Shown: positions 3,394 through 36,361 of the stretch, in pieces
Layout: every line of letters starts with the position of its first letter
How positions within the stretch are numbered: position 1 is the stretch's first letter
DNA from: a virus
Length of the DNA stretch: 36,361 nucleotides
Virus record (IMG/VR): IMGVR_UViG_3300030331_003452
Coordinates: 1 to 36,361 of that record
Reading direction: 5' to 3' (one strand)
The notes under the pieces: model-generated
Told to the model about the DNA's origin: nothing
The model's database searches: none
What the model saw: the letters and a program-made list of their open reading frames with translations, nothing else
Program-made: the position numbers and the translations under genes

Positions 3394-3854
3394 AACTTCA
3401 GCCTTAGCATCAGGCCATCGATGCCGGTGTTGGGCTTATGAATCCCCGCACTTGAATAGTGGAAATATTCGACCTGGAAAACCCTTGTCTCGATGCCCAG
3501 ACCGTTACGGTAGTTTGTATCGCCAATAAGCAAGGCATCAGGCGTGTGAGCCACCCCTATCCTGAAGTAGCCGCAAACCGAGCCGACACACCAACCAGGC
3601 CTCACCATTTTTGAAAGCGAGTAAAGATTAATAGCCTCGTCGCGCCTGCCCTTATTGGTCTCGCCTTGGCCCAGCTGAGTGGCGGCAAGTTCCCAATCGT
3701 TCATCTCGTAGCTAACCTCTCCCGCAGTCACGTCAGACGTTCTAAACGTCTTGCCAAGGGACAGCCTGACGCCGTCTGCCTTAGCATCAGCCGAATACAA
3801 TGCTGCGATTAACGCGCATACGAATACCGCAACTGCCGCCGCTGTTTTGTTCAT
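3390..3854 (-). CDS. PagL-like lipid A 3-O-deacylase / outer membrane beta-barrel
   Basis: A 154-residue exported protein with an N-terminal signal sequence (residues 1-27, cleavage likely after AKA). The C-terminal signature FHYSSAGIHKPNTGID matches the active-site strand of PagL outer-membrane deacylases (HYSNAG...PN.GIE in Pseudomonas). His132, Ser134 and the acid at 146 keep the exact +2 and +14 spacing of the PagL triad, with Asp replacing Glu. The mature chain is shorter than PagL, so a complete eight-strand barrel is uncertain. In a phage it could trim or mask LPS after lysogeny or at lysis. AGGCGAAG precedes the ATG. Confidence 0.65.
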   Translation of the reverse strand: MNKTAAAVAVFVCALIAALYSADAKADGVRLSLGKTFRTSDVTAGEVSYEMNDWELAATQLGQGETNKGRRDEAINLYSLSKMVRPGWCVGSVCGYFRIGVAHTPDALLIGDTNYRNGLGIETRVFQVEYFHYSSAGIHKPNTGIDGLMLRLKL

Positions 3855-34235: not shown

Positions 34236-34463
34236 TCAAGCGGCTTGGGTCGGTTCGGAGTCTTCGTATCGCTCCGGGTACAGAATCTCCAGCTCAGTCA
34301 TGCTCCCGCCAGAGCTTTCAGCCAAGCGCTCCGCGAGCTTCTTTCCGCACGAGCCGCTGGCTATGGCTATCTGCTTGAAGTTGTCGAAAGTCGTGTTTGC
34401 AGAGCGGCAAATCTTCTCGATCTGGTCGCGAGGAGTGGACTGGTAAAATTGTCGTGGTGTCAT
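34236..34463 (-). CDS. Cro-like repressor (YdaS-type HTH)
   Basis: 75 residues from ATG at 34463; the preceding in-frame TTG would add four residues. HTH features: MTPRQFYQSTPRDQIEKICR, ANTTFDNFKQIAIASGSCGK. It is transcribed from the promoter at 34496-34523, which overlaps the operators, and diverges from the repressor gene. This is the Cro position: it would keep lytic genes on by binding the operator sites. Confidence 0.8.
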   Translation of the reverse strand: MTPRQFYQSTPRDQIEKICRSANTTFDNFKQIAIASGSCGKKLAERLAESSGGSMTELEILYPERYEDSEPTQAA

Positions 34464-34495: not shown

Positions 34496-34523
34496 ATCAT
34501 AGTGAATTACTAATATAAGTCAA
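34496..34523 (-). promoter_or_regulatory. Early promoter pR (minus), overlapped by operators
   Basis: TTGACT (complement of 34518-34523), 16-bp spacer, TATGAT (complement of 34496-34501), each matching consensus at five of six positions. It drives cro and downstream genes. Operator 1 covers the -10 and spacer, and operator 2 lies just upstream of the -35, so repressor bound there would block it. Confidence 0.75.
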
Positions 34524-34557
34524 TAGTGATCTACTGTTAACGGGTAGTTAATTACTA
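34500..34557. promoter_or_regulatory. Three operator sites (TAGT-N5-ACTA) in the right operator region
   Basis: TAGTGAATTACTA (34500-34512), TAGTGATCTACTG (34524-34536, one mismatch) and TAGTTAATTACTA (34545-34557). Centres are 24 and 21 bp apart, close to two helical turns. They lie between divergent repressor and cro genes, matching the lambda OR layout. Confidence 0.8.
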
Positions 34558-34573: not shown

Positions 34574-34927
34574 ATGGATGTAATCGAAAAACGAAAGCGG
34601 AATTTCTGCGCGCTGTGCGACAAACATAGTAGGGGCACTATCGCCCAAAAAATGGGTTACTCAGACACCAACTATGTCAACCAGCTTTACAAAGGGCATG
34701 GCAGCTTCGGCGGCAAGACCGCTAGGAAGGTTGAGTCTGCACTTAACCTCCCGCTTGGCTGGATGGATGAGCTTCACGCGGACGCGCCCGACGAATCTGA
34801 CGAACACAGAGCAAGACGCGAATCACTGCGTCGGCTTTTGGAATTAGTTCCCGAGGAAAATATTGATGCTGCTGAAACAGTTCTGCGCGCACTGACTGCG
34901 GCTCCTGGAAAGCAAGCCAACCAATAA
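34574..34927 (+). CDS. CI-like repressor, short, lacking a peptidase domain
   Basis: 117 residues with an XRE-type HTH in the N-terminal half (GTIAQKMGYSDTNYVNQLYK, SFGGKTARKVESALNLPLGW) and a helical C-terminus (RRLLELVPEENIDAAETVL). There is no LexA/CI-type Ser-Lys autocleavage domain, so SOS induction must use another route. It is divergent from cro across the operators. The start ATG at 34574 has no clear Shine-Dalgarno sequence. Confidence 0.75.
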   Translation: MDVIEKRKRNFCALCDKHSRGTIAQKMGYSDTNYVNQLYKGHGSFGGKTARKVESALNLPLGWMDELHADAPDESDEHRARRESLRRLLELVPEENIDAAETVLRALTAAPGKQANQ

Positions 34928-35003
34928 AGCCTTCTAATGCCGTGAGTTCTGTCTGAGTAAAGCCCTTCAGTTCATCGTCTAGTTGTTGAATGATTGATTG
35001 CAT
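34743..35003 (-). CDS. Putative SOS-inducible antirepressor, antisense to repressor 3' half
   Basis: 86 residues, ATG at 35003 with GAGGG and a 7-nt gap upstream (an in-frame TTG at 35021 would extend it by 6). The helical N-terminus (MQSIIQQLDDELKGFTQTEL, FIGWLAFQEPQ) looks like a protein-binding domain. It lies under a strong promoter whose -10 is inside a LexA box. The gene overlaps the repressor gene by 185 bp on the other strand. The sequence family is not recognised. The arrangement (short repressor without autocleavage plus LexA-controlled ORF) suggests an antirepressor that inactivates the repressor after DNA damage. It might also act by antisense transcription. Confidence 0.5.
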   Translation of the reverse strand: MQSIIQQLDDELKGFTQTELTALEGFIGWLAFQEPQSVRAELFQQHQYFPRELIPKADAVIRVLLCVRQIRRARPREAHPSSQAGG

Positions 35004-35059
35004 TATTGCACCCTCACTCAAGCCGGTTTCCGCATGGTGCTTCGTTTGGATCGGCTGAG

Positions 35060-35075
35060 CTGTATTTATAAACAG
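35060..35075. promoter_or_regulatory. LexA (SOS) box
   Basis: CTGTATTTATAAACAG is the canonical CTG-N10-CAG palindrome with an AT-rich core (E. coli consensus CTGT-N8-ACAG). It overlaps the -10 of the minus promoter at 35065-35093. Confidence 0.75.
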
Positions 35076-35093
35076 TATTTACGCTGGTAGCAA
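35065..35093 (-). promoter_or_regulatory. SOS-controlled promoter facing the antisense ORF
   Basis: On minus: -35 TTGCTA (complement of 35088-35093), 17-bp spacer, -10 TATAAA (35065-35070). The -10 is inside the LexA box, so LexA would block it. The predicted transcript start is about 55 nt before the ATG at 35003. Confidence 0.65.
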
Positions 35094-35287: not shown

Positions 35288-35857
35288 ATGAAAGCATCGA
35301 GAAAGCTATTGCCAGCAATCTTTCTGGCGACCTCTGTAGGGACTAACGCCGCCCCAACATACACGGAGAAAGATATCTACATTGATGATAAGACTAGGCC
35401 CTACAAGGACTTAATAGTTGCCGGAATCAACAAGGTTGCGAGAGAGAACAGCCGATGCAAGAGAATGGAGCCTAGTTCCGCCTACATCTCCGGCAGTCGC
35501 GGCACGAAAGATAATCCCGTGTTTTTTGTGACCTGCTACGAGGGTAACAATCCGTTTAATGTCTGGTTTTCAAAATCAGACATTGAAGGCGGCAAGCACA
35601 TAGCAGCAAAGGGCAATATTTCACGGCGTGATGCCGTATCCGCTTGCCGAAAGCGGGCCAAACAGCTGGCCAACCACCCATCCACGGTCAGGTTCTCAGC
35701 CATAATGGACGCGGCCTACACCCCTCATCCTGGGGGCAATACATCGCTTTATAGTACGTTTACGGCCAAAAATTCCTTTAACTTGGAGCAAAAGTTCAAG
35801 ATAAAGTGCCTATTCAAAGGCAGCACCATGGTTGAATCCGTTGTAACCGAGATATAA
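35288..35857 (+). CDS. Exported hypothetical protein (lysogenic conversion candidate)
   Basis: 189 residues from the ATG at 35288 (GAGGG upstream). Signal peptide about residues 1-21 (MKASRKLLPAIFLATSVGTN), then a mature protein with several cysteines (SRCKRMEPSSA, FFVTCYEGNN, SACRKRAKQ, KIKCLFKG). A disulfide-stabilised periplasmic or surface protein is likely. Unrecognised family. It is on the same strand as the repressor and is followed by a terminator, so it may be expressed in the lysogen and alter the host envelope or block superinfection. Confidence 0.6.
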   Translation: MKASRKLLPAIFLATSVGTNAAPTYTEKDIYIDDKTRPYKDLIVAGINKVARENSRCKRMEPSSAYISGSRGTKDNPVFFVTCYEGNNPFNVWFSKSDIEGGKHIAAKGNISRRDAVSACRKRAKQLANHPSTVRFSAIMDAAYTPHPGGNTSLYSTFTAKNSFNLEQKFKIKCLFKGSTMVESVVTEI

Positions 35858-35921: not shown

Positions 35922-35947
35922 AGCCGCCCTCCGAGGCGGCTTTTTTT
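35922..35947 (+). terminator. Rho-independent terminator after the exported protein gene
   Basis: A stem GCCGCC / GGCGGC (35923-35928 and 35935-35940) with a 6-nt loop is followed by seven T (35941-35947). It ends the plus transcript of the exported protein before the left operator. Confidence 0.9.
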
Positions 35948-35988: not shown

Positions 35989-36023
35989 TAGTAATTCACT
36001 ATTGACGACAAAGTATTTTACTA
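35989..36023. promoter_or_regulatory. Left operator pair (TAGT-N5-ACTA)
   Basis: TAGTAATTCACTA (35989-36001, the exact complement of the first right operator) and AAGTATTTTACTA (36011-36023, one change). Centres are 22 bp apart. They flank and overlap the early promoter at 36002-36030. This gives a bipartite repressor switch like lambda OL and OR. Confidence 0.75.
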
Positions 36024-36152: not shown

Positions 36153-36361
36153 ATGACTACCACAGTAACCACAACAGAACAGCTTCTGGCCATGCGCGGG
36201 AAAGATGGCGTTATTCGAGTAGAGGATGACCTGCGCATTGAATGCGATGTGCCTTGGTCAGCTGGTAAAGAAATCTCAGGTATTGAGGTCGATGGCAACC
36301 TAGACTGCAGTGGCTACCTCTACTGCAGTGGCTACCTCGACTGCCGTGGCAACCTCTACTG
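36153..36361 (+). CDS. Pentapeptide-type repeat protein (partial, runs off right edge)
   Basis: Starts MTTTVTTTEQLLAMRGKDGV with AAGGGG before the ATG. From about residue 48 it becomes a tandem five-residue repeat G-N/Y-L-D/Y-C-S/R, encoded by 15-bp DNA repeats (36286 onwards). Each unit is likely one coil of a beta-helix. This type occurs in temperate phage early regions. Function unknown; the C-terminus is not in the window. Confidence 0.75.
   Translation, partial: MTTTVTTTEQLLAMRGKDGVIRVEDDLRIECDVPWSAGKEISGIEVDGNLDCSGYLYCSGYLDCRGNLY

Follow-up and report, generated by a model that had tools for sequence, protein, structure and literature searches.

A candidate LexA-repressed antirepressor gene encoded antisense to a peptidase-less phage repressor

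How does a phage lysogen respond to DNA damage when its repressor lacks the domain for self-cleavage? Phage repressors that are unable to self-cleave are common, and to our knowledge damage sensing by such short repressors is known for few of them only. The question is posed here by an IMG/VR virus record (IMGVR_UViG_3300030331_003452) of 36,361 bases, which was analysed over its whole length and is referred to below as the window. The large terminase shares 78% identity with its counterpart in Pseudomonas phage phi297; a search for related phages by means of the helicase loader returned none, and one by means of DnaB returned distant relatives only. The immunity region of the window has a lambda-like order, with a Cro-like gene, operator-like palindromes, the repressor gene, and a second operator pair. 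The Cro-like gene (34236-34463, minus strand, 75 amino acids) is the first gene of the opposite operon. Between it and the repressor gene lie three operator-like palindromes TAGTNANNNACTA, at 34500, 34524 and 34545 (34500-34557), and the second pair lies at 35989 and 36011 (35989-36023). Near the right end of the record, at 36153-36361, an open frame containing short repeats LDCSGYLYCSGYLDCRGNLY runs off the end.

The repressor gene (34574-34927, plus strand) encodes 117 amino acids, with a helix-turn-helix (HTH) at residues 3-56, a C-terminal helical hairpin at residues 76-108, and no S24 peptidase. The original prediction of a 117-residue repressor without an autocleavage domain is borne out, as Pfam and PHROGs recognise an HTH repressor alone (phrog_5736, E 4.4e-10) and the AlphaFold model (AF2, mean pLDDT 82) is all helical, consisting of the HTH and the hairpin, the latter with pLDDT values of 78-88 across most of its length. 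The HTH matches that of the SPC32H Rep protein (PDB 5d50, E 3.5e-6), which was also on top of a Foldseek structure search in which all matches were driven by the HTH and none had E < 0.001.

On the opposite strand lies the candidate antirepressor gene, an ORF of 86 codons (34743-35003, minus strand; ATG at 35003-35001, stop at 34745-34743), codirectional with the Cro-like gene. Its overlap with the 3' end of the repressor gene, previously put at 185 bp, is confirmed and spans 34743-34927; its start lies 76 nt past the repressor stop. A ribosome site GAGGG can be read from the sequence at 35011-35015 on the minus strand, and 8 nt separate its GAGG core (35015-35012) from the ATG; the site that had been described as good is thus present, but moderate in strength. 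ORF length carries no evidential weight here, because the antisense frame is open equally far in 19% of synonymous recodings of the repressor gene (P = 0.19), and the open frame as an argument for coding was rejected across the loci discussed below, with P values of 0.12-0.47 per locus. Homologues of the ORF product were found neither in the viral_contigs and genome_contigs collections, nor in phages by tblastn, nor in PHROGs and the PDB. An AF2 prediction from the single sequence places helices at residues 2-13 and 17-31, which would form an N-terminal hairpin; it is weak, the best model having a mean pLDDT of 71 and four of the five models values of 62 or less. The evidence for the ORF is its promoter, the LexA box on it, the geometry of its start, and its relatives.

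The promoter consists of a -35 hexamer TTGCTA (35088-35093) and, 17 bp from it, a -10 hexamer TATAAA (35065-35070), both read from the sequence of the minus strand. A promoter scan omitted this pair because it demands a T at the last position of the -10. The -10 lies inside a LexA (SOS) box, CTGTATTTATAAACAG (35060-35075; CTGTTTATAAATACAG as read on the minus strand), which matches by both pattern and matrix. Of the earlier description of a LexA box overlapping the -10 of a strong promoter, the box and the overlap stand, and the word strong is justified for the promoter, which has nine of twelve consensus matches but is not exceptional. None of the operator palindromes of the window falls in this promoter. 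No plus-strand hexamers comparable to the minus-strand pair were seen by eye at the box, and no minus-strand terminator is predicted between the promoter and cro.

The box is the only CTGTN8ACAG in the window, where 0.39 would be expected; as at least one occurs in 32 of 100 shuffled versions of the window, the bare pattern is weak evidence. With a matrix built from 16 E. coli SOS boxes, the window box scores 24.9, within the range of 13.9-27.3 spanned by those boxes, and the second-best site of the window reaches 11.3. Across a background of 490,442 positions the sole site equal to it was the same site, carried by L001. The motif is shared by the recA regions of three genomes with related modules, which score 23.8 (G227), 21.0 (G001) and 24.2 (G215).

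Relatives of the module were retrieved through Cro (and the repressor) and not via the antisense ORF. The Cro relatives led to L049, L050 and L129 (Teredinibacter), and less clearly to L053 and L133; the Cro proteins of L049 and L050 are 65-67% identical to that of the window. In L049, L050 and L129 a peptidase-less repressor gene is followed by a small antisense ORF (77, 58 and 54 amino acids, respectively), which begins 79, 91 and 73 nt beyond the stop codon of the repressor gene, is preceded by a Shine-Dalgarno match of 5-6 nt, and occupies the same antisense frame as in the window. A wider search with the repressor added L143, a more distant relative of the window module, in which a 123-aa peptidase-less repressor is accompanied by an antisense ORF of 62 amino acids at +49, again in the same frame. 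L143 is a prophage whose region includes terminase small subunit, endolysin, replication, and SSB genes, and it carries a LexA box (score 20.1) over the promoter region of the ORF, 42 nt before the ORF start. The antisense ORFs of L133 and L053 were rejected as support, being in the same frame but having a weak start signal or no hairpin.

The matrix scan found no LexA box at L049, L050, L129 or L133, so that SOS control is not conserved together with the layout. Two of the five convincing members, the window and L143, have a box. What all five share is therefore the small protein encoded antisense, and the trigger differs from phage to phage. Two further occurrences of CTGTN8ACAG were rejected as SOS boxes, one (L053:1861) lying inside a plus-strand gene and another, near L191, having a low matrix score. 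The idea that the ORF arose as an inverted copy of the repressor 3' end was likewise rejected, since the window, L049, L050 and L129 are free of inverted repeats; L143 has one inverted-repeat pair, which is AT-rich and involves the LexA-box region. Within the overlap of L129, near 3503-3520, a palindrome TTGTTCGGAGTGAACAA translates to (L/F)V(R/H)SEQ whichever strand is read.

The Cro and the DNA-binding domain are shared by five prophage loci of the G001 family, L201, L202 and L204-L206, where the repressor C-terminus is an S24-type peptidase. No LexA box was found within 1,200 bp of the repressor stop in these five loci, and no antisense ORF of the window kind in L201 and L204, the two dereplicated representatives scored. 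A set of 73 dereplicated loci, from which the window was excluded, was used to count antisense ORFs with a ribosome site: they occurred in 7 of 28 peptidase-less loci versus 2 of 45 peptidase-bearing ones (Fisher P 0.023), a count in which L203, L145 and L053 are unconvincing and some ORFs lie in other frames. The rule is not absolute, because the cousin L203 has neither a peptidase nor a convincing antisense ORF. LexA boxes were not enriched in the same set, with 1 of 28 versus 0 of 45 (P 0.38), L143 being the only case. As an observation on the repressors themselves, the window and L129 have a hairpin where L201, L202 and L204-L206 have the S24-type peptidase, the Cro and the HTH being common to both, which looks like an apparent domain exchange at the repressor C-terminus within one immunity family. 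The same Cro and DNA-binding domain joined to either a peptidase or a hairpin would offer a natural comparison of two routes of SOS induction.

The family of the antisense product had not been recognised in the original prediction; comparison of profiles suggests that it probably resembles the repressor's own C-terminal hairpin. When a profile of four ORF N-termini was aligned by hhalign with one of five repressor C-termini, the match had a probability of 84% (E 7e-6), and against the whole repressor profile the ORF N-termini landed on positions 84-112, that is, on the hairpin (E 1.8e-4), while the controls, the HTH part and Cro, gave 0.1%. Of the cognate pairs of ORF and repressor, those of L050 and L129 are individually significant and that of L143 is borderline (0.064), the pooled P being 0.002; in the window's own pair the similarity is not significant (P 0.21). 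The similarity in L050 is not an artefact of antisense coding, because most of the similar region lies outside the overlap; in L129 it lies partly inside. Since short helical profiles are promiscuous, the match supports resemblance and not common origin, and PDB matches of the short hairpin profiles to cytochromes and a geranylgeranyl transferase were judged spurious.

The best reading of the locus, which we hold to be probable, is that the 86-residue ORF product is a LexA-repressed antirepressor, a decoy of the repressor's pairing hairpin that is encoded antisense to its target. Such a switch would unite two known principles, the LexA-repressed antirepressors of the Tum/AntC/GfoA kind and the pairing of SinI with SinR. 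It is preferred because the repressor is peptidase-less, the box lies on the promoter, the antisense position is conserved, L143 presents a second case, and the arrangement is absent from the peptidase-bearing cousins. SOS induction through such a protein, as first proposed, is thus the favoured reading, and the original proposal as a whole is supported in part. The input from LexA is not general, L049, L050 and L129 having the antisense ORF and no box. In the lysogen, host LexA would occupy the -10 of the ORF promoter and keep the ORF off. Upon DNA damage, activated RecA (RecA*) would trigger LexA cleavage and the 86-aa protein would be made; its N-terminal hairpin may then pair with the repressor hairpin, breaking repressor dimers or higher forms, so that the repressor would leave its operators and the lytic genes would be expressed. 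Binding of the repressor by the ORF product is inferred from the sequences, as are LexA binding at the box, SOS induction and readthrough into cro. As a secondary effect the ORF transcript might interfere with the repressor mRNA and deliver cro, which is possible because its gene lies antisense to the repressor gene and points at cro with no predicted terminator between. A wider proposal is offered tentatively: one LexA-controlled transcript would make the decoy, oppose the repressor mRNA and deliver cro, and an antisense decoy with an exchangeable trigger would replace the peptidase across phages.

Three other explanations have to be weighed. The RNA itself could be the output: an SOS transcript would traverse the repressor gene in antisense, continue into cro and the early lytic genes, and so bypass the repressor, the 86-aa frame being incidental. 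The direction of the promoter, through the repressor into the codirectional cro without an intervening minus-strand terminator, would suit this, as would a frame that could be open by chance; but a start codon and ribosome site would then be superfluous, and the recurrence of start position, Shine-Dalgarno sequence, frame and hairpin similarity in relatives, of which three lack a LexA box, makes the explanation unlikely. It also seems improbable that the ORF encodes an SOS-controlled accessory or host-modulating protein in the position of lambda rex, with the repressor inactivated in another way. The family-level match of ORF N-termini to the repressor hairpin and the association of antisense ORFs with peptidase-less repressors speak against such a protein, and this incomplete record has no second LexA box that might drive an antirepressor elsewhere, even if other phages have a variety of genes behind cI and the window's ORF bears no significant similarity to its own repressor. 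A spurious ORF beside a LexA-like box that is fortuitous, or that serves the plus-strand gene at 35288-35857, could be argued from the shuffles, the recodings and the lack of a homologue, but is very improbable given a matrix score unmatched elsewhere in the background, a minus-strand -35 and -10 that are 17 bp apart, the latter within the box, and that no plus-strand hexamers seem by eye to equal, the second case in L143, and the position and frame that recur in relatives. The gene in question (35288-35857, plus strand) lies between the antisense-ORF promoter and a terminator at 35922-35941 and encodes a secreted-looking protein of 189 amino acids that matches phrog_29597, a family without an assigned function; it is perhaps a lysogenic-conversion gene.

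As a LexA-repressed antirepressor, the ORF product would join those of other phages with short repressors, namely GfoA/GftA of Gifsy (Lemire et al. 2011, PMC3121763), Tum of 186, and AntC of N15. Like Tum, AntC and GfoA it would be a small antirepressor whose gene has a predicted LexA box on its promoter, facing a repressor without an autocleavage domain; homology to described antirepressors was not found in phages (tblastn), PHROGs or the PDB, and the class is one defined by logic and not by homology. In Gifsy, however, the modules are spatially separate, with the antirepressor after dinI in an operon (PMC3121763), whereas the window gene lies antisense within the immunity region. The Salmonella phage SPC32H offers a Rep with a homologous DNA-binding domain and an Ant whose target is Rep's C-terminal domain (PMC9986798). 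The SPC32H Rep, of about 198 amino acids, dimerises by a middle domain and tetramerises by a beta-alpha domain, in contrast to the 117 residues, all helical as modelled, of the window repressor; a weak local match of the latter to Rep's last helix is not significant, and the ORF product matched nothing in the PDB, Ant included.

A small antirepressor candidate facing a short repressor made of an HTH and a C-terminal helical hairpin recalls SinI and SinR. SinI has a hairpin that resembles SinR's own, and it is through this hairpin that it pairs with SinR. In Bacillus subtilis this small antirepressor forms a heterodimer with SinR (PMC4238804). Unlike the window pair, SinI and SinR do not belong to a phage, sinI responds to Spo0A~P instead of LexA, and the genes are not antisense; the Pfam SinI domain had no match in the window proteins. 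In TF-smORF modules a homologue-less small protein inactivates the cI of its own phage and the triggers vary (Silpe et al. 2023, PMC10432266), and the varying trigger of the antisense-ORF loci is reminiscent of these exchangeable inputs. Those modules work independently of SOS, are driven by the gene of a transcription factor that is divergently oriented, and were looked for in phages whose cI cleaves itself (PMC10432266), whereas the window has a peptidase-less repressor and, as neighbour, the secreted-looking 35288-35857 product instead of a divergent transcription factor. The layout suggests a mechanism, the decoy of a pairing hairpin, and also where similar genes may be found: on the antisense strand, some 50-90 nt beyond the stop codon of the repressor gene.

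Other LexA-like sites were encountered during the survey. In another lineage, sites scoring 17.3 at L141:1411 and L150:1540 lie about 60-80 bp upstream of the start of peptidase-less repressors of 124-125 amino acids, where LexA control may possibly be exerted at the repressor/Cro promoter itself. In Pseudomonas phage vB_Pae_CF3a (L196:2821) a LexA box CTGTCTGTATATACAG lies roughly 30 bp beyond the stop codon of a CI of the self-cleaving type and is followed by a hypothetical gene on the plus strand; here the slot has an SOS-type gene that is not antisense. Finally, a strong LexA-type site (21.6) is present in Pseudomonas phage AUS531phi (L003:6010), far from the repressor gene.
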